Position numbers and translations under genes: made by a program
Notes under the pieces: generated by a model
Databases searched by the model: none
What the model was told of the DNA's origin: nothing
The model's input: the letters and a program-made list of their open reading frames with translations, nothing else
Source of the DNA: a virus
DNA length: 23,690 bases
IMG/VR virus record: IMGVR_UViG_3300020215_000662
Location: 1-23,690 of that record
Reading direction: 5' to 3' (one strand)
Shown: positions 5,562 to 23,690 of the stretch, piece after piece
Layout of the letters: each line of letters starts with the position of its first letter
Numbering within the stretch: the stretch's first letter is position 1

Positions 5562-5589
5562 ATTATACTAAAAAACGGTGCCTCGTCAA
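5562..5589 (-). promoter_or_regulatory. Sigma70-type promoter of the capsid module
   Basis: The minus strand reads TTGACG (5584-5589), 16 bases, then TATAAT (5562-5567). The -35 box lies directly beside the stop codon of the upstream gene. Transcription would start near 5555 and give a leader of about 65 bases containing the hairpin at 5498-5526 before the ATG at 5489. The -10 is a perfect consensus and the -35 matches five of six. Confidence 0.7.
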
Positions 5590-6275: not shown

Positions 6276-7586
6276 TTAGATTTCGCGCGTAAAGAGTCCG
6301 GTAAGTGAGACGGTAGTACCGGTAATGTCCCCCATATCAGCAGTCCAGTTATTCCCGGTGTCGTTCTGTGGATAGGGAAGCGGGAGCGTAAAACCTGCCG
6401 TACCATTAGCCGGAATTTGGAGCGTCGTTGCCACGTTGCCGCCCGTGACCGCGCGAATGTCAACTGATACTGCTGCATCTGAGTTATTCGCACCTACCAC
6501 GGCAATCAAATCGTGCATGTGACCTGCACTGGCCGCTAAGAATGTTGTTTCAGTTCCATTGGTCAGTTGTACGTAAGCGGTTTTTGTGAGGTCGCGCACC
6601 TGAATGGGCCGGATGAGCATGCGCCCCAAATCGTCAAAAATTGCGTCGGCTCGGTCGGCGTTATCCAAGGATGTACTTGGGAGTGTCTGTCGTACCTTAC
6701 CGCCGATTTTCACGGGATTTCCGGTGTCGGTGACATCATTAGCAACATTTCCGCTCGTTTCCGTAGTCCATCCCGATCCTGATACCTGCATAACAGGCAC
6801 GGCCGATGCACGGAGTTCTGAATCAGTGAGTCCGGAACCCCCTGTTTCCACTGAGACTTTGATCCGGTTATCTGCATTGAAGACACTTGACGCTGAAGTC
6901 GAGCCAAAAATATCAATCACTGCAACACTCCAGTTTGCCCCCGATACTTGCGAGACCGGAACTGCGGAAGCGCGCAATTCCCCATCAGTCAATCCCCCTG
7001 TCGCAGAACTCGACATTGTAACCTTCAGAGCCCCCGTGTCTTGATCAATGAGCGATACCGAAGAAGCTCTAATGTCCTTGATGGTAAAGAAGTCTGCCTT
7101 CCCGCCTCCGGCACTACTGACACTCTGATTGAAGCTCACCGGATTGCCGTGCATGTCGCGCAGTTGGACCGGAAGTGGATTGTTGAGATCAACCCCCATC
7201 AAGCTAACCCACCCGCGAATCTGCATTTCCTCAGGCATAATCACCTCCGGTACTTTAATGGGCGGTACATTGACCATCACGCGCGGCTGCACCTTGCTCA
7301 TCGTCTGCTCAATGATACTGATGATGGGTGCAGTATCGACATCTTTAATGCCCCGATTTGCAACCTCAGCGGAGAGTTGTTGCATGAGTTCGCGCATTTC
7401 TGCTTTGCTCAGATTCGATGATCGTGCAATTTCCATCAAGAAGGGCGTCAACATGGTTGCCAGATTCTGTCCCACTGTATTGAGCAGTCGGTGCGAAGCG
7501 GCCTCATTGCCTGCAGCTGCTCGCGCTGTTGCAAGTGAGCTCTCAAGAATCCCTTTAAACTGTTTGATGATGTCGTTGTTGTTCAT
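6276..7586 (-). CDS. Repeat-containing fibre-like protein, short paralogue
   Basis: A 436-residue paralogue of the protein at 8570-10534. Residues 1-100 are helical. Then come two VP repeats (VNVPPIKVPEVIMPEEM) and the shared block RGWVSLMGVDLNNPLPVQLRD (about 124-144). The segment GGGKADFFTIKDIRASSVS follows. Two copies of the 54-residue repeat begin LTDxELRASAVPV at 199 and 253. The C-terminal beta domain is shared too (TNGTETTFLAA, GNNWTADMGDITGTTVSLTG). From the KADFF block to the first repeat about 57 of 62 residues match the longer paralogue. The LTDxELRA-VPVS repeat is known from many tailed-phage virion proteins. The ATG at 7586 comes four bases after the upstream stop. Fibre or decoration protein is an inference from repeats and position. 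Confidence 0.7.
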   Translation of the reverse strand: MNNNDIIKQFKGILESSLATARAAAGNEAASHRLLNTVGQNLATMLTPFLMEIARSSNLSKAEMRELMQQLSAEVANRGIKDVDTAPIISIIEQTMSKVQPRVMVNVPPIKVPEVIMPEEMQIRGWVSLMGVDLNNPLPVQLRDMHGNPVSFNQSVSSAGGGKADFFTIKDIRASSVSLIDQDTGALKVTMSSSATGGLTDGELRASAVPVSQVSGANWSVAVIDIFGSTSASSVFNADNRIKVSVETGGSGLTDSELRASAVPVMQVSGSGWTTETSGNVANDVTDTGNPVKIGGKVRQTLPSTSLDNADRADAIFDDLGRMLIRPIQVRDLTKTAYVQLTNGTETTFLAASAGHMHDLIAVVGANNSDAAVSVDIRAVTGGNVATTLQIPANGTAGFTLPLPYPQNDTGNNWTADMGDITGTTVSLTGLFTREI

Positions 7587-8569: not shown

Positions 8570-10534
8570 CTAGACTTCCTTAGTGAATAGTGCAGAGACA
8601 TTGACTGTTGTTCCCGTAATATCCGGCATATCAATAGTCCAGTTATTATTTGCGTTGCCCTGAGGCCACGGTACGGAGAACGCAATACCCCCCGGAGAGT
8701 TAGCAGGAACTTCAATCGTGAATTCGACATTGCCTGCTGTAACTGATCGGACATCGAGGGTAACTGCAACGCTTGAATTGTTTGAAGCCATGATGGAAAT
8801 ACAGTCATGGAATACACCTGTACCGCCTGCAGCAAGAAGTGTTGTTTCGGTTCCGTTGGTGAGTGCAACAAAGGCTGTTGCAATGAGGCCGCGAGCCTGT
8901 ACGGGTCGGACCAACTGCCTTCCGAGGTTGTCAGATGAAAAGCTCACAGTATCGCCTCCTGAAACAGCAGAAGGGTTTGCAGTGCGGGCAATGCCACCCA
9001 TTTTGACCGGAGCAGAGTTGTCGTCGACAGCATCAGATGCAGTGGTTCCCGTTACAACAGTTGAGGTGATTGAACCGGAAACCGTCACTGTTGGCGTTCC
9101 CTGAATTGTTGCAGCAGTTGATACAGCACTGTCACCAGCAATGACAACGCGAATGGTCCTTGAGTCAGTGTCGCCCTGATTTGCTGCAACACCTGCAACA
9201 CCTGAAATGATGTTTACTTTTGCACGGTCTGATTCGTCCCAATCATCGAGTACTGAAAGTGAGGCGGTCTGAGTTTGCTGTTCAGCGAGTGTTGCTGCGC
9301 CAGACGGCAAGGCAGAAGAAACAACATTCGTGCTCCACGTTGATCCGCTGACCTGCTCAACGGGCACCGAAGTAGCTCTCAGTTCAGAATCAGTTAAGCC
9401 GCTGCTCCCCGTAGGTAACTCTACTTTCAATCGTCCATCGGGGTTAACGATATCAGTTGCAGCTGAGTTAAAGATTTCTTTGACGTAGACTGTCCATGCT
9501 GCGCCCGAGACTTGAGACACCGGAACAGACGCTGCACGCAGCTCAGAATCGGTAAGACTACTCGAGCCCGTTGGTAGTTCAACCTTAAGTCGCCCATCGG
9601 GGTTGATCACATTGGTTCCCGTTGAGCCAAAGACATCTGTAACATACACGCTCCAATTGGCACCACTCACTTGACTTACCGGGACTGATGATGCTCTCAA
9701 TTCACTATCCGTTAATCCTGAACCTCCGGTTTCAACTGACACCCGCAAGCGGTTATCGGCATTGAAGACGCTCGTTACAGCAGTTGATCCAAAGGCATCT
9801 ACGACATTGACAGAATAGGTTGCTCCGGAGACTTGCGAGACTGGGACTGATGAAGCACGCAGTTCTGCGTCAGTAAGCCCTCCGGTCGCAGAACTCGACA
9901 TGGTGACTTTCAGTGCTCCGGTATCTTGGTCGATGATTGATACTGATGAGGCGCGGATATCCTTGATCGTGAAGAAATCGGCTTTGCCGCCACCTCCCCC
10001 ACCAATAATCTGGGTAAGGTTTTCAAAGAGATTGACGGGATTCCCCTTTGCATCACGCAACTGAACCGGGAGCGGGTTGTTCAAATCAACACCCATGAGT
10101 TGTACCCAACCCCGGATGTTCATCTCTTCGGGCATAACCACATCGGGAATCTTGATCTTCGGTACTTCTATTTTAGGGACTTTAACCGTGACTTCTGCTT
10201 TCGGAACTTTGATCTCCGGGAGCTTAATCTCGGGAACATTGACCGTGACTTTCGGTTCCGGGACATTAATCACCGGAAGTTTGACCTCCGGTACATTGAC
10301 CTCAATGTTGGGCGTCGGAACTTCGATGTTCGGATTAACGCTAATTTGCGCGACCGCATTGAGAAAATCCTCCTTTGAAACTTTTGCGTTGTCAGCTACT
10401 TCATCGAGCACGGGGCGCAGAATTTCGACAATTGCCGGGCCGAGCACTTGGAGCAACTCTTTGGTTGCCTTCTTGTGTGCAATTGCCTCTTCGAGTGCTT
10501 GTTTTGCTTGTTTGAGTACGTTGTTAGGTTCCAT
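8570..10534 (-). CDS. Large repeat-containing fibre-like protein
   Basis: A 654-residue protein. Residues 1-65 are helical. Residues about 68-135 are a tandem short repeat of VP-E-I/V-K type (VNVPEVKLP, VNVPEIKLPEIKVP, VKVPKIEVPKIKIP). About 140-165 is the block shared with the short paralogue (RGWVQLMGVDLNNPLPVQLRD), then a polyglycine linker (178-183) and KADFFTIKDIRASSVSI. Four copies of a 53-54-residue repeat start LTDxELRA at 220, 274, 327 and 380. A low-complexity threonine/serine/valine region and a C-terminal beta domain end in GTTVNVSALFTKEV. It follows the portal gene with one base between (TAG T ATG). Repeated beta motifs plus a helical start fit an elongated fibre, head-fibre or spike subunit. 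Its location between portal and scaffold is not the usual tail-fibre place. Confidence 0.75.
   Translation of the reverse strand: MEPNNVLKQAKQALEEAIAHKKATKELLQVLGPAIVEILRPVLDEVADNAKVSKEDFLNAVAQISVNPNIEVPTPNIEVNVPEVKLPVINVPEPKVTVNVPEIKLPEIKVPKAEVTVKVPKIEVPKIKIPDVVMPEEMNIRGWVQLMGVDLNNPLPVQLRDAKGNPVNLFENLTQIIGGGGGGKADFFTIKDIRASSVSIIDQDTGALKVTMSSSATGGLTDAELRASSVPVSQVSGATYSVNVVDAFGSTAVTSVFNADNRLRVSVETGGSGLTDSELRASSVPVSQVSGANWSVYVTDVFGSTGTNVINPDGRLKVELPTGSSSLTDSELRAASVPVSQVSGAAWTVYVKEIFNSAATDIVNPDGRLKVELPTGSSGLTDSELRATSVPVEQVSGSTWSTNVVSSALPSGAATLAEQQTQTASLSVLDDWDESDRAKVNIISGVAGVAANQGDTDSRTIRVVIAGDSAVSTAATIQGTPTVTVSGSITSTVVTGTTASDAVDDNSAPVKMGGIARTANPSAVSGGDTVSFSSDNLGRQLVRPVQARGLIATAFVALTNGTETTLLAAGGTGVFHDCISIMASNNSSVAVTLDVRSVTAGNVEFTIEVPANSPGGIAFSVPWPQGNANNNWTIDMPDITGTTVNVSALFTKEV
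9320..9880 (-). repeat. Four tandem 53-54-residue LTDxELRA repeats
   Basis: Within the large fibre-like protein, copies begin LTDAELRASSVPVSQVSGA, LTDSELRASSVPVSQVSGA, LTDSELRAASVPVSQVSGA and LTDSELRATSVPVEQVSGS. Spacing is 54, 53 and 53 residues, so units are about 160 bases. Copies two and three also share the intervening NPDGRLKVELPTGSS segment. The short paralogue carries two more copies. Confidence 0.85.
10130..10339 (-). repeat. Tandem short VPEI/VPKI protein repeat
   Basis: Residues about 66-135 of the large fibre-like protein are built of approximately 5-10-residue units with Val-Pro followed by Glu or Lys and an aliphatic residue. The units extend without insertions until MPEEMNIRGW. 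The charge changes along the array from glutamate-rich to lysine-rich. Such regular valine-proline strands are expected to form an elongated beta structure. The short paralogue keeps only about two units. Confidence 0.75.
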
Positions 10535-10535: not shown

Positions 10536-12257
10536 CTACATTGTTTGGAGCTGCATTAAATTCTGCTGGATATCGTTCATGATCGGGCCATTCTCTCCGC
10601 CCTGTTCCATGGGATTCATGAGCGCCATTTCTTCAATACGCCTCTGCTCATTTTCTACCTCTTTTAGCTCTTCGGGAGTCAGATCAAGTAACTCGAGGTT
10701 TCGCTTGAGTGAAATCTTCTTGAGCGCCATGTTGTTAGGATTCTGCGAGAGGACAAACTGCCACTTTTGGAGAGATTTGACCTCGCTCTGCTCCTGTTCA
10801 GAGGTTGACTGAACAATCGGTTCGTACCCCACATCAGACTTCCAGTCCGAAGCGTATACCCGCTGAGTGTACATCTTGCCTGAGCGCGAGGTTTTATAGA
10901 GGCTCACGAGCTTGGGTGCATTGGCGTGAATGAGCTTATCCCACTTGCAGGCGAGCTCGTAGCGTGCCAGTCGGTAAAACTTCTGCATGCCAATCGTACG
11001 TTCCATCGCCTTACCCACCAAGACTTGTACTTCACCGAGTGTTTGTGTTCCCTCTTCACCCTCACCCTTTTCAATGGCCGTAGCACCGGATGCACGTTCA
11101 ACAATTTGCGTGAGTGCAGAAATGGCTTGGAGTGTATCATCAAGCCCCGAAATCTCGACAGGCTTAATTACCTTGTTAATGTCATCACCCGGAGGTGCAG
11201 GGAGCATGACCCCCGGCCCCGGCGTATAGGTCTGTGGCGTGTAGCCCTGCTGGGGCAAGAACCAGTGCATCTGAAAGTTCTTGAGTGTTCGGTTCTCAAT
11301 CAACTGACTAAACCATACGTTAATGACCTTATTTGGTGTTCGAACCAAATCATCAATCGAATCTGGGTAGATGTCGATATTCTCTGGGTCTTCGCTCCAC
11401 ACGATGAATGGCCAGAAGTCGACCCCAATGAGCTTCTTGAGGGGTTCATTCATGAGCTCTATGTGATCTTCAGCGTATACGACAACACGGCGTTCCCAAT
11501 CCTGCTTTTTGGTATTCCAGACATTGGTGTAGTGTTCAGTGAGATTGATGATCCGATCTCCTCCTGCAAAGAGGGCAAAGTCGCTGTGCTCAACACCCAT
11601 GCTCTTGAGACGCTCAATTTTCTCTTCCCAGTGCTTCTTATTGTCTTGACTCTGTGTCATACCCGGCGCTGAATCAACCCAGAGCTTGAGTTTATTTTTC
11701 CCCTCTTCGGTATATCGATCATCAGCCAGAATCTCACGCACTGATCGGAAGATGTTCTGACGCACAATAAAGCGTGCTGTCTCGATGTCGGCAGGATTCA
11801 TGAGCGGATCAAAGACGATATCGTAGACATCGAGGACATGTACGGAAATTCCCCTTTTGCCAATGTTGAGCATCATCGTGCTCAGTCCATAGCGGAGAAC
11901 ATTTTTCTTATCGAGAATATCAAGCAACTCGAGCTTGTTCTCCTTCATGGTCATATCCCAGAGCTCCTGATAGAGAATCTCCTTATCCTCATTTCCGCCC
12001 TTTTCTTTCCACTTTACGTTAGGAGCATCATCAATTTTCGAGAGTAACGTTTTCTCCGTCTCTTTCATGAGCGGAATATTGACCGCTTGTCGTTGCGTCA
12101 AACGGTTGGTTTTGACTTTGTTGCGGCACAGCTCATAGTTATCATCCCAGTCAGCGTGTTTGCGCTGCTGTAATTCGTTGGCGGCTTTCTTTTCTGCTTT
12201 CAGTTTTTCTAAAAGCGTGCTCGTTTCCCATGTTCCGTTTATGACTTCGTTAGACAT
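10536..12257 (-). CDS. Portal protein
   Basis: A 573-residue protein downstream of the terminase module and upstream of scaffold and capsid, as expected for the portal. It has a long helical N-terminus (LLEKLKAEKKAANELQQRK). Then come a segment describing coordinated helices and strands (LDVYDIVFDPLMNPADIETARFIV), a central beta/alpha wing, and NIYPDSIDDLVRTPNKVIN-like stem residues. A conserved-looking loop follows (RASGATAIEKGEGEEGTQTLGEVQVLVGKA), with helices ending in an acidic and glutamine-rich tail. 'FDP' plus 'PN.VINVWFSQLIENRTL' and 'GATA..G..E...QTLGEVQ' fit portals of P22-like or related families. The ATG at 12257 directly follows a strong hairpin and has no Shine-Dalgarno sequence. 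The family call is high because of motif plus position; the precise portal subfamily is not fixed. Confidence 0.82.
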   Translation of the reverse strand: MSNEVINGTWETSTLLEKLKAEKKAANELQQRKHADWDDNYELCRNKVKTNRLTQRQAVNIPLMKETEKTLLSKIDDAPNVKWKEKGGNEDKEILYQELWDMTMKENKLELLDILDKKNVLRYGLSTMMLNIGKRGISVHVLDVYDIVFDPLMNPADIETARFIVRQNIFRSVREILADDRYTEEGKNKLKLWVDSAPGMTQSQDNKKHWEEKIERLKSMGVEHSDFALFAGGDRIINLTEHYTNVWNTKKQDWERRVVVYAEDHIELMNEPLKKLIGVDFWPFIVWSEDPENIDIYPDSIDDLVRTPNKVINVWFSQLIENRTLKNFQMHWFLPQQGYTPQTYTPGPGVMLPAPPGDDINKVIKPVEISGLDDTLQAISALTQIVERASGATAIEKGEGEEGTQTLGEVQVLVGKAMERTIGMQKFYRLARYELACKWDKLIHANAPKLVSLYKTSRSGKMYTQRVYASDWKSDVGYEPIVQSTSEQEQSEVKSLQKWQFVLSQNPNNMALKKISLKRNLELLDLTPEELKEVENEQRRIEEMALMNPMEQGGENGPIMNDIQQNLMQLQTM

Positions 12258-12870: not shown

Positions 12871-13389
12871 TTACTGTGTTTCGAAATGTCGTAGCTCCTC
12901 GCTCCACTCATGCTCGGTCGGGTAGTTAATTCTTCGAGCAGGATTCCCCACCCACGTTTCGCCGTCAGGAACGCACTTGGTAACGACAGACCCCGCGCCA
13001 ATCAGTGCATTTTTTCCAATGGTGATACCCGGAAGAATGACGCAGCCTGCACCAATGCGTGCGCCCTCGCGGACACGTGTTGTGAGCCAATTACGGTTAC
13101 CCGGAATGAGCTGCTTATCATTGGTGAAGGTTACCCGAGGTCCGATGAACACGTTGTCGTAAATCATCACCTTAGGTGGGATGAAGCTGAATGCTTGGAT
13201 GCTGACATTGTTGCCAATGATCACCCCATCCCCAATCCAGACGTGCGAGTGAATGGTGCAGTTTCTGCCGATCGAGCACGTGCCGATATTGGAGAGCTGA
13301 GGATACCAGAGCATGGTTCCATGCCCGATGCGATAGCGCACCTCGTCACCGCGCAGGTACTTGAGGAACGATTTTAGCCACGCTTTCAT
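12871..13389 (-). CDS. Left-handed beta-helix N-acetyltransferase (WbpD/WlbB-like)
   Basis: A 172-residue protein with repeated hexapeptides of the left-handed beta-helix (IGTCSIGRNCTIHSHVWIG, GVIIGNNVSIQ, RIGAGCVILPGITIGKNALI). It also has the family end GAGSVVTKCVPDGETWVGNPARRI. The internal VFIGPRVTFTND motif with a following extended loop matches UDP-sugar N-acetyltransferases of the WbpD/WlbB group, which transfer acetyl from acetyl-CoA onto amino sugars. H48 lies in the usual region of the active-site histidine, but other histidines are possible. The start at 13389 is preferred to the TTG at 13407 because AGAGGAG lies six bases upstream, the strongest ribosome site in the window. It sits between terminase and portal genes, about 2.5 kb from the other sugar genes. 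Confidence 0.78.
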   Translation of the reverse strand: MKAWLKSFLKYLRGDEVRYRIGHGTMLWYPQLSNIGTCSIGRNCTIHSHVWIGDGVIIGNNVSIQAFSFIPPKVMIYDNVFIGPRVTFTNDKQLIPGNRNWLTTRVREGARIGAGCVILPGITIGKNALIGAGSVVTKCVPDGETWVGNPARRINYPTEHEWSEELRHFETQ

Positions 13390-13395
13390 GACACA

Positions 13396-13402
13396 CTCCT
13401 CT
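13396..13402 (-). promoter_or_regulatory. Strong ribosome-binding site of the acetyltransferase
   Basis: AGAGGAG on the minus strand is spaced six bases before the ATG at 13389 and decides that start. Nearly all other genes here lack such a site, so this gene may have been acquired with its own initiation signal or be translated independently of neighbours. Confidence 0.7.
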
Positions 13403-13411
13403 TGCAAAGAA

Positions 13412-13620: not shown

Positions 13621-13815
13621 CTATTTACGATATTTCCTCTTTTTCGTTAAATGCCATGCGTTACACTGCGGACACGGATAGATTCTGAGCCGTTCGCGTC
13701 CTAATCGTTCCAGTGAGTTACGTTTAGTCTGAGCAGTCTTTTTATCAAACGATACCTTCCCACATTTCCCCCGTGGATTTCGATCACCGTTTGAGAGTAA
13801 GCGCCACGGTTTCAT
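13621..13815 (-). CDS. Small basic zinc-finger protein
   Basis: A 64-residue, strongly basic protein (MKPWRLLSNGDRNPRGKCGK) ending with YPCPQCNAWHLTKKRKYRK. The CPxC and the following W-H, with the earlier C18, suggest a compact zinc site. The CPxCxxWHLTK pattern is frequent in small phage proteins near packaging genes and probably binds nucleic acid. The start overlaps the stop of the large terminase (ATGA, four bases), arguing for coupled translation. No catalytic centre is visible; an HNH nuclease is not supported because no H-N-H triad can be placed. Confidence 0.65.
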   Translation of the reverse strand: MKPWRLLSNGDRNPRGKCGKVSFDKKTAQTKRNSLERLGRERLRIYPCPQCNAWHLTKKRKYRK

Positions 13816-15017
13816 ACGCCAATGTCGGGATAGTATGCCCCAATCGGTTTAGACTGCTCGGGAATCTTGAACGCGGGCTTCTTGATAATGGAGGTCATGG
13901 CATACCGCCCAGCATCGAGTGCATGGTCATTCCCTTTCTCAGGTTGATTGGGAATCAGATAGTTTCCATCCTTGTCTGTTTTCCAAAGATAACTTCGATA
14001 TTCCTTGAGAAGATTGACCGACCGCTTGGTAACAGAGATACGCTGTGCTTGCACGACAGCAATACCATTGCGGACTGAGTCGGGACCCTTTTCAGCAGGC
14101 ATAATATTTACCCCGTGGAGCTTAATTTCATCGATGGATTTGGGCTCGGCGGAATCGGCAATGACGAGTGTTTCCGGGTATGGGAGATTGCGAATGAAAT
14201 CTGCAATGGGTTTGTTGAGCATGGAGCGTTGGTAGAGTTGCTCATCCCAGATGTACCCGCCGTTGTAGTAGTAGATATCAAGGAGTGCCGACGGATGGTT
14301 TGTGTACCCGAAGTCGAGTCCCCGGCGCTCAAGGCGTGCATGGTGCGGTATCTCGTCAATAACTTCCCAATCTTTGTAGATCAACCCCTCGACTTGTCCC
14401 AATTGTCCGAGTCCATATACTTGCCACCACATTTTGTTATTGCGGTGACTCTCAATTTCGTGCCGGATCACCGCATCCAGTGCTTCATTGTCCAAGTAGG
14501 TCAGGGTAATGAAGTCAATGTCATCGCGGTTCGGCCGCATCTCCGTATAGAACCAAAACTCAAACGTCGGGTTCCAGTCGAGCCAGACAATCTTGCGCGT
14601 ACGGGTGATCAGCTGATCGACAATTTTGTACTCAAGGTTGTTTGCTTCGTTTACAAAGAGCACGTCACGGCGGGGCCCGTGTGCCTTTCCGTAGCTATCA
14701 ACACTGAAAAACTCGATCTTCGTTCCGGTCTCAAAGGTATAGGTGTGCTTAGTTTTATTCCAGCGTGACTCGTTCCAGTACCCTTGAGCCTTCATGATGT
14801 TTTCGAAATCGAACATCGCCCCCTTTTCGAGGTGCGGGTACGATTCGGAAACAACGCTGATGAGCTCTCCATAGGTGCTCTGTGCATAGTCAATGCACCA
14901 GACCAGAATAGAGATGGTCTTTGAGGCAGAAGTACCTCCAGCAACAGCCCTAATTCGTTTCTTCAGGCTGAATATCTTCTTCGTTGCTGTCGTGTTCTTG
15001 AACACTATTTCCGCCAT
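13812..15017 (-). CDS. terL: Large terminase subunit
   Basis: A 401-residue packaging motor protein. The N-terminal ATPase has a Walker-A-like P-loop GGTSASKT at 27-34, a Walker B segment VLFVNEAN at about 119-126 with E124 as likely catalytic glutamate, and a motor strand LDWNPTFEFWF near 146. The C-terminal nuclease begins with GLDFGY (D235). It has IADSAEPK (D288), the PAEKGPDSVRNGI loop and HALDAGRYA (D368), acidic residues that bind metal for DNA cleavage. This is a Terminase_3/Terminase_6-like layout, slightly short. It translocates DNA into the prohead with the small terminase and portal. The ATG at 15017 lies within the end of the small terminase gene (68-base overlap), unusual but supported because the P-loop follows close to this start. 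Confidence 0.92.
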   Translation of the reverse strand: MAEIVFKNTTATKKIFSLKKRIRAVAGGTSASKTISILVWCIDYAQSTYGELISVVSESYPHLEKGAMFDFENIMKAQGYWNESRWNKTKHTYTFETGTKIEFFSVDSYGKAHGPRRDVLFVNEANNLEYKIVDQLITRTRKIVWLDWNPTFEFWFYTEMRPNRDDIDFITLTYLDNEALDAVIRHEIESHRNNKMWWQVYGLGQLGQVEGLIYKDWEVIDEIPHHARLERRGLDFGYTNHPSALLDIYYYNGGYIWDEQLYQRSMLNKPIADFIRNLPYPETLVIADSAEPKSIDEIKLHGVNIMPAEKGPDSVRNGIAVVQAQRISVTKRSVNLLKEYRSYLWKTDKDGNYLIPNQPEKGNDHALDAGRYAMTSIIKKPAFKIPEQSKPIGAYYPDIGV

Positions 15018-15348
15018 AGATCGGTTTAGGTAAGACTACATTGGTCGTATTCTCATCCTTCCAACCGTAATTCTTCAAGGCAAAGATCGCACCTGTTGCC
15101 TTGATGTGCGGGCTGTAGAGTATTTTTTCTGCGTAGTTTTCACAGCGTAGCTTGGCTTGAGCAACAATATCTGCATATGCTTCCCGTGCACCGTAGTTGA
15201 TGAGCGTTTGTCGGTTCGTGTCTAACGCCAAAGCGAGCCCCGTGATCGTGTAGGGTTCTTTCTTCTTGTCACACTGGTTGAAGTACTCGGTGATCTTTTT
15301 CTTGAGCGCTTCAGCTGTTTTAAATTTGAGCGGGCGTCCTGCTTCCAT
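14950..15348 (-). CDS. terS: Small terminase subunit (gp3-like packaging protein)
   Basis: A 132-residue protein with the pattern GRPLKFKTAEALKKKI, then YTITGLALALDTNRQTLINY, a helix-turn-helix that recognises DNA. It continues with LRCENYAEKILYSPH and TGAIFALKNYGWKD, characteristic of terminase small subunits of the gp3-type DNA-packaging family. The C-terminal 35 residues are acidic and likely flexible, contacting the large terminase. The first part of terL overlaps the final 68 bases in another frame. The start ATG at 15348 follows the coiled-coil gene stop with a four-base gap. Very confident from consecutive motifs and its neighbour. Confidence 0.9.
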   Translation of the reverse strand: MEAGRPLKFKTAEALKKKITEYFNQCDKKKEPYTITGLALALDTNRQTLINYGAREAYADIVAQAKLRCENYAEKILYSPHIKATGAIFALKNYGWKDENTTNVVLPKPIYGGNSVQEHDSNEEDIQPEETN

Positions 15349-15843: not shown

Positions 15844-16494
15844 TTACTTGCGCTTAGGCGCTTTAGCGACAACAACATAGCCGATTTTTTCTTGATACCC
15901 ACCACCGGGCCATGCGTCAGGAGGAATTTTGTACATTATTATATCATAAAATCCGTGTTTTTCAAGCAGTGACTTATAATCGTGTGCATAGTACCCCGAC
16001 CTGTACTTCACCATCATGCGCTTAAACCAATTGGGCTCATGAAATTCGCACAGCACCACGTAGTGCCTCGCGATACGCTTGATTTCATGCATGACTTTTT
16101 CCATGCGGTGAGGACTGATGTAGATGAGACACATATCCGTGAGCACCACATCCACTGAATTGTCAGACATCATGACATCATCCACAGGACAAACTTTGAA
16201 GTAGCCACCTTTAAAGGTTTGCTGGGCAAGTTCAATGGCCTCCGGGTTCACATCACAGCCCCCGACTTGCTTCCCGGTGAAGTGCTTGATGATGTTGACG
16301 AGGTTCGGCCCCGGCCCCGAGCCCAGTTCCACGAGCGACATCCACGGAAAGGTCTTGAGTATCGCCGAAATCATAAAGCGGTGTGGGTGGTTCCACGTAT
16401 CGAGGTACGACGTTTTCCAGTCGATCTTACGGTCACGCCAGTACTGCGCGTGCTCGTCGGTTGTTCTGAACAGTCTAATTCCTAAGAAACTCAT
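15844..16494 (-). CDS. SAM-dependent class I methyltransferase
   Basis: A 216-residue protein if started at ATG 16494 (MSFLGIRLFRTTDEHAQYW); a GTG at 16518 would add eight residues and enlarge overlap with the upstream gene. VELGSGPGPN (about 55-64) is SAM-binding motif I, CDVNPEAIELA motif II region and VDVVLTDMCLIYI the post-II strand. EFHEPNWF and the YRSGYYAHDYKSLLEKHGF segment follow, then a final strand pair ending in VGYVVVAKAPK. These fit small class I methyltransferases of the type that modify sugars or lipids. The position at the end of the glycan cluster suggests O- or N-methylation of the glycan, but substrate is not identifiable. Confidence 0.8.
   Translation of the reverse strand: MSFLGIRLFRTTDEHAQYWRDRKIDWKTSYLDTWNHPHRFMISAILKTFPWMSLVELGSGPGPNLVNIIKHFTGKQVGGCDVNPEAIELAQQTFKGGYFKVCPVDDVMMSDNSVDVVLTDMCLIYISPHRMEKVMHEIKRIARHYVVLCEFHEPNWFKRMMVKYRSGYYAHDYKSLLEKHGFYDIIMYKIPPDAWPGGGYQEKIGYVVVAKAPKRK
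15938..15965 (-). promoter_or_regulatory. Possible promoter for the packaging module
   Basis: Inside the 3' part of the methyltransferase gene the minus strand reads TTGAAA (15960-15965), 16 bases, then TATAAT (15938-15943). It would transcribe the coiled-coil gene and terminase genes with a leader of about 108 bases. It lies in coding sequence, so chance similarity cannot be excluded. Confidence 0.4.
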
Positions 16495-17404
16495 AGATTT
16501 TGTGATAAAAACGTTCACCCACCCAGTAGCGGAGCTTACGCTGCCACCCGTGGGGAAGTTTCCGCATGATAATTCTCCGGAGGCTCATTCTGATTTTGAG
16601 AGGCTCAACATGTCCTAGACCAAAAGTCGCTAATACAATTTCTTTTTCTCTGTAAGACACCTCTTTACCCGCAAATGGATGGTTGAAGATGGTGCTGATA
16701 TTCTCTCCATGAGTACCAACAAGGAAACTGCGCTGATCAACGTACAGTGCGGGCAAAAAATCCTTAACATACTCATGACTCTTATACGGTCCGGTGTACT
16801 GAACGTGTTTGAGCGGGTCCGTAAAAATGTCCCGGGGAAAGCGAATAGTATAAAACGGCGGTGTTGTGGTGGGATTCCACTCACAAATTTTTTGTTTTAT
16901 ATAATCCATGACATACCCTCTCGAGTAACCATAGACGTGAATCTCCCTGTTTTTTGCAAAGAATTTCTGAATATCATCGACGACAAGAGCGTCATAGCAA
17001 TCATCTGACGGCTGTATTGTCATGAGCACGGTGTCTGCTTCGCCGATTACATTCAGGAGTTCACCCATGGAGCCGTGGATGGAGTCAACGAGTCGTTTAT
17101 GGGCAATTGCATCTGGGTACTTATCATCCCAAAAACAAATACCTGCGTAGGTAAAGACATTCCTGAGTCCTAGCTCATCGAGATACTTTTTGAGCTCTAT
17201 GACCTGCGGATTGCTGCGTTCCTCATAGCGCCATGCACACCAGAGGATGAAGTTCTTGTTGGTCTGGGCTTGAAGCGAGGGAACGACAAACTGCTTGAAG
17301 ATTTTAATGCGATTCCGCAACCACCGATTGCCCCGAAAGCCTCCGTAAAGGCCAAGCCCGGTCCACGGGACGTGCAGCAAGTGAACTACTTTTTGAGATT
17401 CCAT
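16475..17404 (-). CDS. Putative rhamnosyltransferase-like glycosyltransferase
   Basis: A 309-residue protein with the pattern RNRIKIFKQFVVPSLQAQTN at residues 30-49, followed by NFILWCAWRYEE. This resembles the N-terminal nucleotide-sugar region of the putative rhamnosyltransferase family (PF11316-like). A DxD-like SDDCYD lies at about 133-138 with a second DD at 143-144, suitable for metal and sugar-nucleotide binding. The C-terminal quarter is basic (RMSLRRIIMRKLPHGWQRKL) and may touch the membrane surface. It probably transfers a sugar to a surface glycan. It overlaps the methyltransferase start by 20 bases and starts 19 bases inside the upstream glycosyltransferase. Donor and acceptor are unknown. 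Confidence 0.7.
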   Translation of the reverse strand: MESQKVVHLLHVPWTGLGLYGGFRGNRWLRNRIKIFKQFVVPSLQAQTNKNFILWCAWRYEERSNPQVIELKKYLDELGLRNVFTYAGICFWDDKYPDAIAHKRLVDSIHGSMGELLNVIGEADTVLMTIQPSDDCYDALVVDDIQKFFAKNREIHVYGYSRGYVMDYIKQKICEWNPTTTPPFYTIRFPRDIFTDPLKHVQYTGPYKSHEYVKDFLPALYVDQRSFLVGTHGENISTIFNHPFAGKEVSYREKEIVLATFGLGHVEPLKIRMSLRRIIMRKLPHGWQRKLRYWVGERFYHKIYEFLRN

Positions 17405-18237
17405 GGATAGTTATTTAATACTCCTTTGTAATAGCGATAACCGAGGATGTTCGGCTCTGTCTTGTTTTTTAATTTGTTGATCTCGGAAACCTCGAGCATG
17501 TGTGGGTACTCGATGAGCGACACGGGCCACTGTCCCATGAGTACACTTTTCGCCAGAATTTCCGAGAAGCCGTCAAACTCGGTAAGCCTCAATGCTCCCT
17601 GCATGTCCCTGATCTCCCGGTTCATCTCCTCTTTGGAAACACGGCCATGAATAAAAATGTTTGCAGGCTTAAATACCGTATCGGGAAAAGGAGGTTCGGT
17701 ATTTCCGTAGAGGTGAAACTCAATATTCGGATTTTCTTGAGCAAGCTGGGGAATCTTATCCCATCCATAGAGCTTGAAGTTATTCCCGCTGACGCTCGTA
17801 TACACCTTTGGTTTTTCGCTCGGCTGGTAGGATATTTCAAAATCATCACTGTTTCCCATGAATGAGGGGCAAATTTGTGATTCAATACCCCATCCATTTA
17901 GTGCTATCCTTTCCACATCGTTTTCAACCCAACTTTCGCAGTTTTCAATTATCCAATCAGAAAATGCTTGTGGATCTACTCGAATCTCACCCTTCTCATC
18001 GAGCCAGTACCCATTTCTAAAATGCGTAATATCCGATCCCGCCCAGAGAATCCACTTCTTGCCCCGGTGCCGCCAGAGTGCATAGAAGTCCGGAAATCCG
18101 TAGAGCCCAAAGAACACGCACGGTTTGTCTAAGTCTGTTTCAGGATTGTAGGGTGTGGTTCCCCAAACTGCGTCTGAGGTCCCTTCGAGCAATCCGAGTG
18201 AGGGAGCCCAGCGGCATTTTATTTCTGTTTCTTGCAT
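17386..18237 (-). CDS. GT-B type glycosyltransferase
   Basis: A 283-residue protein. The first half has an alpha/beta arrangement (VFFGLYGFPDFYALWRHRGK, KKWILWAGSDITHFRNG). The second half has the GT4-like layout: a strand-helix nucleotide fold (KPKVYTSVSGNNFKLYGWDKI), NIEFHLYGN, NIFIHGRVSKEEMNREIRDM and RLTEFDGFSEILAKSVLMGQ with the E-x7-E-like acidic pair (EFDGFSEIL). This marks retaining GT-B enzymes. It is shorter than typical 350-400-residue GT4 proteins, so an N-terminal part may be reduced. It overlaps both neighbours by 19 bases, showing tight coupling with the glutaminase and the second glycosyltransferase. It likely extends an oligosaccharide. Confidence 0.72.
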   Translation of the reverse strand: MQETEIKCRWAPSLGLLEGTSDAVWGTTPYNPETDLDKPCVFFGLYGFPDFYALWRHRGKKWILWAGSDITHFRNGYWLDEKGEIRVDPQAFSDWIIENCESWVENDVERIALNGWGIESQICPSFMGNSDDFEISYQPSEKPKVYTSVSGNNFKLYGWDKIPQLAQENPNIEFHLYGNTEPPFPDTVFKPANIFIHGRVSKEEMNREIRDMQGALRLTEFDGFSEILAKSVLMGQWPVSLIEYPHMLEVSEINKLKNKTEPNILGYRYYKGVLNNYPWNLKK

Positions 18238-18776
18238 ACTTCGATAAATTCAGCGAGTAATGGATGGGGCTTGTCTTTGGATGATTGGTACTCAGGGTGG
18301 TACTGAACTCCCACATAGAAGGGATGTCCCTTGAGCCGCATCTCTTCGACAATCGGACCTTCGAACATGAGGTTGAAGTTACTGCTCATGAGGCTGGTAA
18401 CGAATCCGCTCAAGAGTGCAAAGTTGTGCCAGTGGCTTTCCATCTGTCCATTGACGGGGCGCATACCGACGCGGGTTTCAGGTAACCGTTCAATAATTCT
18501 CAACCCCTCATCGCCAAACTCTTCAGAGGTTGCGTCGAGGTTGAGCTCATCGCGGGCGTACTCAATTGCCATCAACTGCATGCCGAGACAGATACCCAAG
18601 GTAGGTACTCTCCCCTCGCGTGCATTTTTGAGCGCCTCCAATTTCTGGGCAACGAGTTCTGGCTTGTGTGACCCTGCAATGATCAGCCCCGGGTAGTCAC
18701 GCCAGAGCGGGTCAATCTCGGTGAGTGCCTTTTCGAGCGTAGCAGTAAAATCTTGTGGACCAACTAAGAATTCCAT
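18219..18776 (-). CDS. Free-standing CTP-synthase-like glutaminase
   Basis: A 185-residue class I glutamine amidotransferase. The nucleophile elbow GICLGMQLMAIEYAR (C63) and the C-terminal GVQYHPEYQSSKDKPHPLL (H160, E162) complete the C-H-E triad. They are closer to the glutaminase domain of CTP synthase (PyrG) than to HisH. The synthetase domain of PyrG is absent and the N-terminal 30 residues are unlike it. Where PyrG has GGFG for the oxyanion region, this protein has AGSHK (34-38). The gene overlaps the end of the N-acetyl-sugar amidotransferase by 13 bases, so it is inferred to supply ammonia to that enzyme. No HisF-like gene is present in the window. Function is inferred; the fold and residues are clear. 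Confidence 0.82.
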   Translation of the reverse strand: MEFLVGPQDFTATLEKALTEIDPLWRDYPGLIIAGSHKPELVAQKLEALKNAREGRVPTLGICLGMQLMAIEYARDELNLDATSEEFGDEGLRIIERLPETRVGMRPVNGQMESHWHNFALLSGFVTSLMSSNFNLMFEGPIVEEMRLKGHPFYVGVQYHPEYQSSKDKPHPLLAEFIEVCKKQK

Positions 18777-19816
18777 ACGCGGCGGAGTAAGCGGATTAGC
18801 GAGCTAATAAAGTTGAAGAGCTTTTCATCTTTAGGAAAATCATCATGTGAACGCTTGGGATACTCCATGATCTTCTTTTCAAGCCCAATTTGCGGGTACA
18901 CCGGATTCTTGCCCAATTCGTGCAGTGCCTGCTCTCGGGTCATCTGTCCTGAGTTGATGAGCGATGAGAGGTGTGCTTTCCGCTTATCAATCCCGAACTT
19001 CTCAAAGAGGTAGAAGTTCTGAAACCACCACGTGAAGATGTTCTCGCAGTGCTTTTCACCGTACGGTTGGTAGCCATATCTTATTTCGAGAGATCTGATT
19101 GCTTGTTCGCGGTTGTAATCGTAATAATCGAGCAAATATAGCGTCTTAATCCCACGCCCCCATTTGTAGAGATTGAAGTCGAGGAGTGAGCAGACGGGCA
19201 ACCCCGCAAGTTCTTCACCGTGTGCCCAGCGGTAGATTGCTCTGATGTGCTTTAAGTCTCTCGCGTTATAGCCCCACGACGGCGGCATGATACTTTCTGT
19301 TGCCACGTTGCCGCCTGAGAGAATCCACTTGATGTTGTACTTTGCGGCCAGTTCATAGCTGACGGCCATGAGAATGTGATCAGTGGGAATCTCGATGTTG
19401 GGAACCCCCGCTTTAATGAATGCTGCTTGGAGTTCTCTAAAGCGCTTCAGATCAATTGTATAGCGATAGAAGGGTACCTTGAGTCCTTCAACCAAGCGCA
19501 TAATGTTTTCGTCTGCTTTGGGATCATTCCAGCCGTTGTCGACAGAGAAGCAGAGCGGGCGCAATCCGAGCTCGAGTGCGTAGTGCAGCACGAGGGATGA
19601 GTCTACCCCACCCGATAATCCAATGAGACAGTCGTACTGCTTTCCCCTGCCTGCACGTATGATCTCGGCAATTCGAGCATTGCGGTTCTCCTTCTCATCC
19701 TCAATCTCATCCAATGCATCTTGTGCTTGGCGGCAAAAGTTGCAGATGCCCTGCTCGTCAAAGACGATTTCAGCAGCTGACTTATCCATGACACAATTTA
19801 CGCACTGGGTTTGCAT
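18764..19816 (-). CDS. N-acetyl sugar amidotransferase (WbpG/PseA family)
   Basis: A 350-residue enzyme with an N-terminal zinc-binding pair C5-x2-C8 and C25-x2-C28 and the PP-loop ATP-pyrophosphatase motif SGGVDSS (68-74). Later it has SVDNGWNDPKAD, LSGGNVATESIM and PSWGYNARDLKHIRA. These match the N-acetyl-sugar amidotransferase family that converts an acetamido group of an activated sugar to acetamidino using ATP and ammonia, as in WbpG and PseA. The C-terminal 100 residues are helical with many aromatic residues. A one-base junction (TAG T ATG) separates it from the upstream SPFH-tail gene. The overlap with the glutaminase suggests co-production. Confident in family; the precise sugar is not known. 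Confidence 0.88.
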   Translation of the reverse strand: MQTQCVNCVMDKSAAEIVFDEQGICNFCRQAQDALDEIEDEKENRNARIAEIIRAGRGKQYDCLIGLSGGVDSSLVLHYALELGLRPLCFSVDNGWNDPKADENIMRLVEGLKVPFYRYTIDLKRFRELQAAFIKAGVPNIEIPTDHILMAVSYELAAKYNIKWILSGGNVATESIMPPSWGYNARDLKHIRAIYRWAHGEELAGLPVCSLLDFNLYKWGRGIKTLYLLDYYDYNREQAIRSLEIRYGYQPYGEKHCENIFTWWFQNFYLFEKFGIDKRKAHLSSLINSGQMTREQALHELGKNPVYPQIGLEKKIMEYPKRSHDDFPKDEKLFNFISSLIRLLRRVWNS

Positions 19817-19817: not shown

Positions 19818-20234
19818 CTATCGCTTGCCTGACTCTAAGATGGGTAATCCTGCTTCGGTCGGAACATAGATCACCTGACTATTCCCCGAGAGCTTATCGA
19901 TCCACAGATAACGCAAATATGATTCATTTCCTTGGAGACTATTTGCAATAATCTTATTTGCTTCTGCTACACCTTTAGCACGAACAATTTCAGCCTCTGC
20001 TTCGGCCTGAGCTTGTTTTATTCTTGCTTCTGCATTGAGTGTTGCAGCATCATTCTGAGCGCGGGCTTGCTCAATGAGAATCTTCTTTTCCCACTCCTGC
20101 TGTCGCAAGTTTGCCTGACCCGCTAAATCTTGTTTATAAATGCGATACTTCGGGATGCCCCACATTCCGAGCGTGATAATGGAGCCGACAACAACAAGAA
20201 TCAGTGTGGATACAATAAAAACATCTGAGCGCAT
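19818..20234 (-). CDS. Membrane protein with SPFH/prohibitin-like C-terminal tail
   Basis: A 138-residue protein (MRSDVFIVSTLILVVVGSII start at 20234; a longer TTG start is rejected because it would overlap the epimerase by 89 bases). Residues 5-25 form a transmembrane segment. Residues about 47-98 are coiled coil rich in Ala, Glu, Gln and Lys (QAQAEAEAEIVRAKGVAEA). The end NESYLRYLWIDKLSGNSQ and VIYVPTEAGLPILESGKR is like the conserved tail of prohibitin/flotillin-type SPFH proteins, but the SPFH domain itself is missing. It may act as a scaffold in the membrane. It occurs in the middle of a sugar operon with one base to the upstream stop. No enzymatic function is expected. Confidence 0.7.
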   Translation of the reverse strand: MRSDVFIVSTLILVVVGSIITLGMWGIPKYRIYKQDLAGQANLRQQEWEKKILIEQARAQNDAATLNAEARIKQAQAEAEAEIVRAKGVAEANKIIANSLQGNESYLRYLWIDKLSGNSQVIYVPTEAGLPILESGKR

Positions 20235-20235
20235 A

Positions 20236-21090
20236 TTATTTAGAGCTAAACATATCTTGTAATCCCTCCTTGAATGAGTACTTCGCTTTGAATCCCAGCA
20301 TGCGTTCTGCCTTTGAACAGTCAAACCAGAACCGATCAGGGTCTACTGTTCGCTGTTCTTTGATTTCGATTTGCTCTTTCGGCCAGTTGAGCGCTTCGCA
20401 GACGGCTTCCCCAGCTTCTTTCGCAGTGAGTTCTTCTCCCGTGCCGACATTGTAGATTTGGTTCCACTTATCCCAAGGAGCCGTAAGTGCAAGGTAATTC
20501 GCAGTTGCAACATCCAGAATATATGTGAAATCGTTGGATTGTTTACCGCCGTAGAGAGTCGGCGAAAGTCCTCTCTCAATACGTTCAAGAAAACCTCCGA
20601 TGAGTCCGTGCATTCTTTTTTCTTTGCCATAGAGATGGGCGTAACGAAGAATAATGTAGGGGTTGCACTCGCGAATGTAGGTTTCTCCGGCGTACTTGGA
20701 GCAGCCATAGACGGAGTTCCCCTTTGCAGGCCAATCTTCTTTGATTGAGCCGTTGAGGTCTTGAATCGGCATGTAGACAGAGCCTGTTGAGGAGTACACC
20801 ACGGGAACGTGTAATCTACCTGCAACATTAGCAACGTTTTTAGTTCCCAAAACATTCGTCTCATATGCTAATTGAGGGTCTTTATCTGCATCGGCAAAGC
20901 GTGCGATAGCTGCAAGATGCAATATGCGTGCTGGATTTTCTTTCCTAATCATTGCCTCAAACTGGTTTTTGTCACGAACATCGAAACCATCCATGATGTC
21001 GTACCCTACCACCTCATGTCCCTCTGCTTCTAAGAGCTTCTGCGTGGCACTTCCCACAAAGCCCCGATTGCCTGTAATTAAGATTTTCAT
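20236..21090 (-). CDS. NAD-dependent epimerase/dehydratase, extended SDR
   Basis: A 284-residue protein beginning MKILITGNRGFVGSATQKLL, with the NAD-binding GxxGxxG (GNRGFVG, 7-13). It has the YSSTGSVY strand with Ser near 100-102 and the catalytic YxxxK (Y128, K132). Later segments (ILRYAHLYGKEKRMHG, DFTYILDVATANYLAL, NVGTGEELTAKEAGE) place it among extended SDR nucleotide-sugar 4-epimerases or related dehydratases/reductases. ATG at 21090 overlaps the previous stop by ATGA; the upstream TTG version is not favoured. In this pathway it could epimerise or reduce the 4-keto or hexose intermediate. Exact stereochemistry cannot be read from sequence. Confidence 0.85.
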   Translation of the reverse strand: MKILITGNRGFVGSATQKLLEAEGHEVVGYDIMDGFDVRDKNQFEAMIRKENPARILHLAAIARFADADKDPQLAYETNVLGTKNVANVAGRLHVPVVYSSTGSVYMPIQDLNGSIKEDWPAKGNSVYGCSKYAGETYIRECNPYIILRYAHLYGKEKRMHGLIGGFLERIERGLSPTLYGGKQSNDFTYILDVATANYLALTAPWDKWNQIYNVGTGEELTAKEAGEAVCEALNWPKEQIEIKEQRTVDPDRFWFDCSKAERMLGFKAKYSFKEGLQDMFSSK

Positions 21091-21947
21091 TTGATTATCC
21101 AAAAGTTATCGCTTTTAATTGCTCGACTCTTTTCTTCTTGGGTCATGAGCTCTTCGGTTAAGGTTTCTCCGGGTCTGAGGCCTGTGATAATCACCGGGTC
21201 TCCTGCTTTTCCGCTCTTCTCCAACACCTTGAGGGCGAGATCATAGATGTTGACCTTTTCTCCCATGTCCATGATGAAGGTCTCGCCACCCTCGCCCTGT
21301 TGTGCTGCTTCAATAACGAGCGATACTGCTTGCGGAATGGTCATCATGTAGCGTTCCATGCGCTCATCAGTTACGGTCAGTGGCTGATTGTTATCCATTT
21401 GTCGCTGCCAGATGGTGAGGAGTGATCCCCGTGACCCCATGACGTTGCCAAAACGGACCACCACGAAGCCTTTTCCTTGATTGAGGGTGATGATCTCACT
21501 CAGTCGCTTGGTTGCACCCATAACCGAATGTGAGTTCACGACCTTATCCGTTGAAATAAACACGAACTTTTCAACGCACTCCCACGTTTTGGCGACATGG
21601 ACGAGGTTATAGTTGCCGTTGACGTTGGTTTGAATCGCCTCGAGTGGGGTGTACTCCATGAGCGGAACGTGTTTGTACGCTGCACAGTTGAAAACGATCT
21701 GCGGTTTGAAGTCTTGGAAGATGTCTTGCACGGTTTTGTAGTCCCGGATGTCCCCCACACGCCCCCAGACCTCATGCCCCTGCAGTTCATCGGTCAAATC
21801 GAAGAGTCCTGACTCGTTGATGTCCACGACATAGACCTTGTTGAGTGCTGCAAGCTGTCGGACGAGCTCTGAACCGATGCTTCCGGCACCGCCAAAGACA
21901 ATGACACGTTTATTGACGATAGAATTCTTTAATTTTTTCGATGACAT
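21087..21947 (-). CDS. WbpM/CapD-type UDP-sugar 4,6-dehydratase
   Basis: A 286-residue soluble protein with GGAGSIG (19-25) for NAD, VVDINESGLFDL, NCAAYKHVPLMEYTPLEAI and STDKVVNSHSVMGATKR. The last region has T133-D134-K135 and the family variant M143-x3-K147 in place of the usual Tyr. These features are characteristic of the FlaA1/WbpM/CapD group of UDP-GlcNAc 4,6-dehydratases. The membrane domain of full-length WbpM is missing, as in short PseB/FlaA1-like forms. The start at 21947 lies 38 bases inside the upstream aminotransferase gene. It would make the 4-keto-6-deoxy intermediate that the aminotransferase then uses. 5-epimerising activity cannot be ruled in or out. Confidence 0.87.
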   Translation of the reverse strand: MSSKKLKNSIVNKRVIVFGGAGSIGSELVRQLAALNKVYVVDINESGLFDLTDELQGHEVWGRVGDIRDYKTVQDIFQDFKPQIVFNCAAYKHVPLMEYTPLEAIQTNVNGNYNLVHVAKTWECVEKFVFISTDKVVNSHSVMGATKRLSEIITLNQGKGFVVVRFGNVMGSRGSLLTIWQRQMDNNQPLTVTDERMERYMMTIPQAVSLVIEAAQQGEGGETFIMDMGEKVNIYDLALKVLEKSGKAGDPVIITGLRPGETLTEELMTQEEKSRAIKSDNFWIIK

Positions 21948-22932
21948 AGAGGGCTTCTTGATATAAGAGAACGTCGTTACAAGGAATGCGGAGCGTATTG
22001 GCTTCGTACTCGAGTGATTGCGGAAGTTTTTGAATTGGGAAGGGGTACTCGTTCTTCATGGTTTCAACCCCCTGTTGCTTTAGGTACTCATAGAGCTCAT
22101 CGCGGTCAGCCACGTGGATGATGAAGTCTTGCCAGACCCGGCCTTCGGGGTTATCGGGGAGGCCTACTACCTCGTCGAGCTCTGTGAGGTAGAGGCGTGC
22201 AATGCTCTCGCGCTTCGCCAACATATCGGGAAGGTACTTCAGCTTCACGTTGAGCACAGCAGCTTGGATGTTATCGAGCCGTGAGTTGACCCCCCACTCG
22301 CTCCCCGTGGTCTTGCAGTGGTTTCTGAGCTCTTTGACGTGGGTGTAGAGGTCTTCGTCATTTGTCACGAGGGCTCCGGCGTCTCCCACCGCACCCAGAA
22401 TTTTTGCCGGATAGAAGCTGAATGCTCCTGCAATGCCAAAGGAGCCTGCTTTCTTACCATTTTGGACTGCACCGAGGGCTTGGCATGCATCTTCGATAAC
22501 AAAGAGTCCATCTTTCCGTACATTTTCTAGCATCACTTCCATGTCTCCAAAAAATGCACCTGCAATATGGGCAACAATAATGCCCTTCGTTTTCTCGGTA
22601 GTTGTTACTACTGCATCCATATCATAGAGCACAGGCGTTGCCCCTAATTGCTTCACTACTTGCGCGGTCGCGACAAAGGTATGACTCGGAACTAAGACTT
22701 CATCGCCGGGGCCAACGCCTAAGTGCCAGAGTGCGAGGTAGAGTGCATCGGTCCCTGAGTTTAAGCCGACCGCGTACTTGGTACCCACAAACGCGGCTAA
22801 ATCCTGTTCAAACTGCTCTACATCGGCTCTCAAGATAAGATCACCATTGGTGAGGACGCGGGTAATAGCCTGATCGATTTCAGGCTTGTACTTCTCATAC
22901 TGCTTTCCGGGGTCGAAGAATCGTACGTGCAT
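21910..22932 (-). CDS. DegT/DnrJ/EryC1 sugar aminotransferase
   Basis: A 340-residue PLP enzyme, MHVRFFDPGKQYEKYKPEID, started at ATG 22932; the TTG at 22965 would extend into the transketolase end. LNSGTDALYLALWHLGVGPGDEVLVPSHTFVAT (57-89) is the cofactor-binding entry. EDACQALGA (D148) follows the strand that contacts the pyridine nitrogen, and FYPAKILGAVGDAGALVTN carries the likely Schiff-base lysine K177. RNHCKTTGSEWGVNSRLDNIQAA is the usual downstream motif. It would transfer an amino group from glutamate to a keto-sugar nucleotide formed by the neighbouring dehydratase. The C-terminal 100 residues are typical but shorter. A 14-base gap separates it from the transketolase gene. Confidence 0.9.
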   Translation of the reverse strand: MHVRFFDPGKQYEKYKPEIDQAITRVLTNGDLILRADVEQFEQDLAAFVGTKYAVGLNSGTDALYLALWHLGVGPGDEVLVPSHTFVATAQVVKQLGATPVLYDMDAVVTTTEKTKGIIVAHIAGAFFGDMEVMLENVRKDGLFVIEDACQALGAVQNGKKAGSFGIAGAFSFYPAKILGAVGDAGALVTNDEDLYTHVKELRNHCKTTGSEWGVNSRLDNIQAAVLNVKLKYLPDMLAKRESIARLYLTELDEVVGLPDNPEGRVWQDFIIHVADRDELYEYLKQQGVETMKNEYPFPIQKLPQSLEYEANTLRIPCNDVLLYQEALYVIEKIKEFYRQ

Positions 22933-22946
22933 AGATTTAAAATTAC

Positions 22947-23423
22947 TTATAAGCGGAAATACCAAGGTTCGGGTGAGTAATAGGCTGCACTCATTTCAAA
23001 TTTGAGCTGCTCTTCATCTTTCGGAAAGCTCATATGGAGATTCGGTAGGTGGCGGAGAATGTTACTGTCCTCGTTGTCGGAGATGTTGTGACTGAATCCT
23101 AAGAATTTGTAGTGTACTGAGCCCTGTACGCCGATGATTTTGACGTTGGCATTGTTGTAGCAGACATCATTCCTCAATTGCTCATAGCAGCGCATGGTCA
23201 CAAAGGGAATCATCGAGTACACGTAGGGTTTCCATCCAGTGAGGGCTAATCCTGCAGCCATGCCCATCATAGATTGTTCGGTCACGCCGCAGTTGATGAA
23301 CTGATTCGGGAACTCTTGTGCAAAATCTTCAATGAATGAAAATCCCACATCACCGACGAGGAGGATGATCTTACTGTCCTTGCGGGCCAATTCGCTTAGT
23401 TGTTCGATGAAAGCTCTTCGCAT
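22947..23423 (-). CDS. Transketolase C-subunit, pyrimidine-binding domain only
   Basis: A 158-residue protein starting MRRAFIEQLSELARKDSKII. The segment FINCGVTEQSMMGMAAGLAL holds the glutamate that activates thiamine diphosphate (E at about 48), and IGVQGSVHYKFLGFSHNISD matches the pyrimidine-binding (PYR) domain of transketolase. It ends PEPWYFRL then TAA, where the PYR domain of related subunits ends. The roughly 120-residue transketolase C domain is lacking. The start lies 28 bases inside the gene for the N-subunit, which should form the other half of the active site. GAGGAG is seen 11 bases before the start. A two-subunit TPP enzyme shifting a two-carbon unit in sugar precursor synthesis is inferred. 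Confidence 0.8.
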   Translation of the reverse strand: MRRAFIEQLSELARKDSKIILLVGDVGFSFIEDFAQEFPNQFINCGVTEQSMMGMAAGLALTGWKPYVYSMIPFVTMRCYEQLRNDVCYNNANVKIIGVQGSVHYKFLGFSHNISDNEDSNILRHLPNLHMSFPKDEEQLKFEMSAAYYSPEPWYFRL

Positions 23424-23690
23424 GCTAGTTGGTACTCCTCATCGGAGATGTTCTTGTAATGCCAGAGGTTATTGTTTTCCATGAATGAGACGCCTTTGCC
23501 TTTGGTGGTGTTGCAGATAAGTACCCGAGGTTTTCCGGGTTCGTAGTAAATACTAGCAAGGTGAGTACTATTCTTTCCTGCAGCATTTAGATCGATTTCA
23601 AGGTTTTCATGATTATGTCCATCAGTTTTTGAGACTGACCACCCAAAAGCACGCCACTTATCGAATAGTGGTTCAATGTTTAAAATATCC
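23396..23690 (-). CDS. Transketolase N-subunit, C-terminal part (partial)
   Basis: The open frame enters from the right edge and ends TAA at 23396, giving about 97 visible residues. It includes NIEPLFDKWRAFGWSVSKTD, a DGHNHENL segment and PRVLICNTTKGKGVSFMEN followed by NNLWHYKN. The DGH, TKGKGVSFMEN and WHYK motifs are diagnostic for the thiamine-pyrophosphate-binding N-terminal subunit of split transketolases. The start and most of the domain lie outside this window. It overlaps the C-subunit start by 28 bases, so the two halves are encoded as one translational unit. Read by eye from the sequence; high confidence in family. Confidence 0.85.
   Translation of the reverse strand, partial: DILNIEPLFDKWRAFGWSVSKTDGHNHENLEIDLNAAGKNSTHLASIYYEPGKPRVLICNTTKGKGVSFMENNNLWHYKNISDEEYQLACEELSSNN

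Follow-up and report, generated by a model that had tools for sequence, protein, structure and literature searches.

In the O-antigen pathway of the P. aeruginosa type, the sugar amidotransferase WbpG is supplied with ammonia by HisH2 and HisF2. The phage contig fragment IMGVR_UViG_3300020215_000662, analysed here over its whole length of 23.7 kb (the window), raises the question of what could serve a WbpG whose gene overlaps that of a small glutaminase of another kind, termed here the mini-glutaminase (mini-GAT). The two genes are arranged as follows.

18764..19816, minus strand: WbpG/WbuX-family N-acetyl sugar amidotransferase, 350 aa (TIGR03573; PP-loop SGGVDSS; CxxC...CxxC)
18219..18776, minus strand: mini-GAT, a class I glutaminase of 185 aa with Cys63, His160 and Glu162, descended from the glutaminase domain of CTP synthase
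18764..18776, minus strand: overlap of the wbpG and mini-GAT genes, 13 bases (from the ORF coordinates)

The original prediction had given these ORF coordinates and the 13-base overlap, together with C63, H160, E162, the AGSHK segment and the motifs GICLGMQLMAIEYAR and GVQYHPEYQSSKDKPHPLL of the glutaminase, and all are present as described. The fragment carries a sugar-biosynthesis cassette alongside genes that identify it as phage. Rfam and tRNA scans returned zero matches.

2667-4001: major head protein (PHROGs match)
10536-12257: putative portal, kept among relatives and without a PHROG match
13812..15017, minus strand: terminase large subunit (PHROG terL)
14950-15348: terminase small subunit (PHROGs match)

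Two further putative virion proteins, at 6276-7586 and 8570-10534, have a common domain (MPEEM.IRGWV.LMGVDLNNPLPVQLRD) and SGLTDSELRASSVPVSQVSG repeats, the second of them with additional VPEIKLPEIKVPK repeats.

The larger partner scores 225.3 bits on TIGR03573, above the cut-off of 203.2, and is thus a member of the WbpG/WbuX family, as its proposed designation as a WbpG-type amidotransferase implied. Enzymes of this family use ATP to activate an amino sugar at its N-acetyl group, which becomes an acetamidino group. The SGGxDSS motif and the zinc-type cysteine pairs (C5, C8, C25 and C28) are invariant in the ten phage WbpGs aligned (alignment A2), and the AF2 model of the window protein (pLDDT 94.9) has 8wex as its best fold match. 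In one related phage (L024, IMGVR 3300024520_000149) wbpG is split by an insert at 5372-6142 encoding what is by eye a NUMOD3/HNH homing endonuclease-like protein; this protein is probably encoded in an intron, and a search for an Rfam match to an intron found none.

The mini-GAT scores 74 bits on PF00117 against a cut-off of 22.8, and its triad is intact, so that from its sequence it qualifies as a class I glutamine amidotransferase. Its best profiles are those of CTP synthase, NF003792 (93.7 bits, cut-off 308) and TIGR00337 (80.9 bits, cut-off 462.75), both scores lying below cut-off; the profile search also agrees that the protein stands alone with no synthetase domain, and thus it is not itself a CTP synthase (PyrG). 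Scores fall below cut-off likewise for NF004836, a CTP synthase C-terminal region-related family (60 bits against 260), and for HisH (TIGR01855; 25.0 bits against 105.4). In a tree of 62 glutaminase sequences the mini-GATs form one clade (94/94) that is joined to PyrG at 100/99, apart from HisH, GuaA and TrpG, with the eight smallest as a sub-clade. Profile score and tree together rule out a HisH identity and uphold the PyrG-like assignment first made from the window alone. All 50 of the 50 best PDB fold matches of the mini-GAT AF2 model (pLDDT 96.7) are CTP synthases, the input alignment of this model having included PyrG domains, which may bias it. NF004836 proteins are bacterial, PyrG-like and likewise separate from a synthetase; the one member sampled fell, on a long branch, among PyrG and outside the mini-GAT clade.

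By sequence, tree and fold search the PyrG glutaminase domain is thus the closest relative of the mini-GAT and has the triad in common with it, yet the two differ by more than the missing synthetase domain. Aligned with PyrG (alignment A3), the mini-GAT keeps the first strand and helix, whereas a stretch of ~30 residues with the second strand is gone, and lengths are 142–196 aa compared with 232–262 aa for the PyrG domains in the set. The PyrG motif GGFG is replaced by G[ST]H, with His for Phe in 16/17 mini-GATs, and ERHRHR by E..W, with Trp for an Arg in 17/17. The altered oxyanion segment noted at the outset is therefore a conserved trait, and may reflect dependence on contact with a partner. 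C63 and H160 are kept in 17/17 mini-GATs and E162 in 16/17, at about 45 % identity; the exception (L009) has HAS in place of HPE and so has lost the triad Glu, a residue of uncertain function in class I glutaminases (PMC6085368). A truncated pseudogene or a missed upstream start was rejected, as the upstream frame meets a stop ~10 codons before the ATG and the short start is kept in all homologues. One could also imagine that the protein imitates PyrG, binding the CTP synthase of the host and altering CTP pools in infection. Descent from PyrG is clear enough, but the contact motifs GGFG and ERHRHR are replaced, the triad is retained, and linkage to WbpG is strict and overlapping, so that this idea is scarcely credible.

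IMG/VR was scanned with each protein and with alignments, and GTDB genomes were also scanned. The survey for the same gene pair elsewhere, proposed along with the original prediction, recovered it in 17 distinct contigs: the window, 14 IMG/VR phage contigs, and two phage-like contigs in MAGs (Elusimicrobia L061 and nzgw467 L135), both of which bear phage genes. Gene order is WbpG then mini-GAT in 17/17, and the genes always overlap, by 10, 13, 14, 17, 20, 26, 38 or 55 nt, an arrangement consistent with translational coupling. Because the overlapping pair recurs in 17 distinct contigs, a chance or one-off gene is ruled out. In both viral scans each mini-GAT lies directly after a WbpG, the remaining matches to the glutaminase being full-length PyrG. 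Searches among 150, 380 and 398 genomes of three phyla for mini-GATs in bacterial chromosomes matched only the two phage-like contigs, the 398-genome search having been run without a positive control. A short GATase in a WOR-3 genome (G023) was considered and proved to be another protein, whose gene has no WbpG gene adjoining; the WbpG of that genome has no HisH/HisF nearby. Assignment of a host from the Elusimicrobia MAG contig was dropped: its portal protein occurs in just 1/295 genomes of that phylum, and mis-binning of the contig is therefore possible.

Comparison of neighbourhoods shows that the surrounding cassette is shared by most of the 17 contigs, often with terL and portal near. In the window it lies on the minus strand upstream of the phage genes, in the order transketolase-like halves, DegT, CapD/PseB-like, SDR, WbpG, mini-GAT, GT1, GT2 and methyltransferase.

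23396..23689, minus strand: transketolase-like subunit of the N-terminal half type, adjoining the C-terminal-half gene, kept beside the pair in related phages and cut by the contig end
22947..23423, minus strand: transketolase/DXS-like subunit of the C-terminal half type (profile match; kept in related phages)
21910..22965, minus strand: DegT-family sugar aminotransferase (PF01041, 272.7 bits)
21087..21947, minus strand: CapD/PseB-like nucleotide-sugar 4,6-dehydratase (PF02719, 292.2 bits)
20236..21102, minus strand: NAD-dependent sugar epimerase/dehydratase, SDR (PF01370)
17386..18237, minus strand: conserved cassette protein GT1, directly after the pair in relatives, by eye like the C-terminus of a GT4-type glycosyltransferase, with no family match
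16475..17404, minus strand: putative rhamnosyltransferase-like glycosyltransferase, GT2 (PF11316, 23.9 bits, cut-off 23)
15844..16518, minus strand: SAM methyltransferase (PF13649/PF08241; TIGR03587 weak)
12871..13407, minus strand: hexapeptide acyltransferase (PF00132)

The split transketolase (22947-23689 in the window) is common to the cassettes of most of the phages. Between the SDR gene and wbpG, at 19818-20324, lies a gene for what appears by eye to be a membrane-anchored, prohibitin-like coiled protein with no family match. Within these cassettes the distance correlation between mini-GAT and WbpG is modest (r 0.43, against 0.22–0.26 for GT1, GT2, methyltransferase and CapD, 0.38 for DegT, and 0.58 for the SDR on fewer contigs), and these sequence distances are only suggestive support for the pairing.

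Two phage lineages (L051/L058/L059 and L053) have a WbpG but no mini-GAT next to it, and their contigs (up to 45 kb) yielded no class I glutaminase; a third such WbpG (L054) stands where the contig end cuts. In L051 two genes that by eye are Gfo/Idh-like oxidoreductase and nucleotide-sugar dehydrogenase-like lie just upstream of wbpG, and L053 has additional methyltransferases behind GT1. Because two lineages have WbpG without it, the mini-GAT may not be strictly required by phage WbpG. WbpG might then take free ammonia in vivo, with the mini-GAT an optional booster or a gene being lost, an explanation that absence of the glutaminase from at least two WbpG-bearing lineages, the reduction of some mini-GATs to 142 aa and the missing triad Glu of L009 would all fit, as would the precedent of NAD synthetase, which comes in ammonia-only and glutaminase-coupled forms (PMC3376133). 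It is nevertheless unlikely, given that the catalytic Cys and His (17/17) and the gene overlap (17/17) have been kept across deep divergence.

HisF was sought in the related phages with the curated model PF00977 and found in 0/19 records, all of them fragments, while the control was positive in 14/14 genomes. Wherever a PF00117 protein occurs in these records the mini-GAT is the sole one, and the three-part WbpG-HisH-HisF system is present in none of the 19, so that the absence of HisF, thought distinctive when only the window was in view, extends to its relatives. Since the window is itself a 23.7-kb fragment, it is only by analogy with its relatives, whose contigs reach 45 kb, that a HisF gene further out can be excluded. 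The bacterial situation differs. HisH and HisF are both near WbpG at 53 of 78 sampled bacterial loci, HisF only at 4 and neither at 21 (L077, L099, L100, L101, L105 and L109, for example), as counted within the fetched flank, some of the 21 being cut by contig ends, and with working profiles built from those loci and seeded by E. coli sequences in place of curated models. Because those 21 loci show neither gene, a local glutaminase may in some cases be dispensable to WbpG. The mini-GAT was found at 0/78 of these loci.

The phage WbpGs, a single clade in the tree (SH-aLRT 100), also lack a segment of ~16 residues (type DKEYV.KKLGLSEEE) that is present in 78/78 of the sampled bacterial WbpGs (loci L062-L140), whether or not HisH/HisF adjoin. 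A tie between loss of this segment and a change of partner is only suggestive from such alignments because the phage WbpGs are one branch. HisH and HisF are present in most bacteria, and those of the host could in principle serve the phage WbpG in trans, leaving the mini-GAT to do something else such as making ammonia for another enzyme. The cassette, however, holds no recognised ammonia-using enzyme other than WbpG, the mini-GAT is seen only directly adjoining WbpG, and the segment missing from phage WbpG is fixed in the bacterial enzymes, those associated with HisH/HisF included. Service by the host proteins is accordingly very improbable.

The reading preferred here, at a probability of roughly 0.8, is that the pair forms a two-subunit glutamine-dependent amidotransferase in which a PyrG-derived mini-GAT replaces HisH/HisF and feeds ammonia directly to the phage WbpG. 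In an ancestor of the phage lineage a CTP synthase glutaminase domain would have been freed from its synthetase, lost the strand-2 segment and had its PyrG contact loops rebuilt; recruited to feed WbpG, it would have taken the place of the HisH/HisF pair usual beside the bacterial enzyme. The mini-GAT would hydrolyse glutamine through its Cys-His-Glu triad, ammonia would pass directly to the PP-loop synthetase, and WbpG would use it to turn the ATP-activated N-acetyl group of an amino sugar into an acetamidino group.

Compared with the WbpG-HisH2-HisF2 system, the phage pair has in common the TIGR03573 PP-loop enzyme and a presumed need for ammonia, but is without HisH/HisF, has a PyrG-descended glutaminase and a WbpG shorter by ~16 residues. 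A Sphingomonas EPS cluster likewise has WbuX together with AlgZ/HisF2 and HisH (PMC11340318). A separate class I glutaminase subunit is also a feature of MurT/GatD, where it feeds, probably through a channel, an ATP-dependent enzyme other than PyrG (PMC6085368); the glutaminase subfamily and the synthetase differ from those of the phage pair. In two-subunit NAD synthetase a glutaminase has likewise been recruited by an enzyme family able to use ammonia, although it is of the nitrilase type and the reaction is another (PMC3376133). By analogy with these two systems, mini-GAT and WbpG may form a physical complex with ammonia channelling. No description of the pairing was found in the literature searched, a set omitting most subscription journals.

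From what is known of the WbpG family, the product is probably an acetamidino sugar, for which these phages encode much of a pathway, and the sugar may go into a phage-encoded glycan, be it on the host surface or on the virion. Of the 19 related phage records, 4 encode an initiating sugar-phosphate transferase (PF02397), which in those slightly favours a lipid-linked glycan as the destination. Acetamidino groups have been met in phage biology before: the Campylobacter phage protein Gp047 recognises an acetamidino modification on host flagella (PMC4690887).

It is likely that a phage lineage made a new amidotransferase by detaching the PyrG glutaminase, shrinking it and docking it on WbpG without HisF. 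At 142–196 aa the mini-GATs would then perhaps count as some of the smallest functional class I glutaminases, and the HisF barrel would perhaps not be needed for ammonia transfer to WbpG. If true, two ancient glutamine-dependent enzymes have cleanly exchanged partners here, and the pair makes testable both the part played by HisF in the bacterial WbpG system and the minimum of the class I glutaminase fold that suffices.
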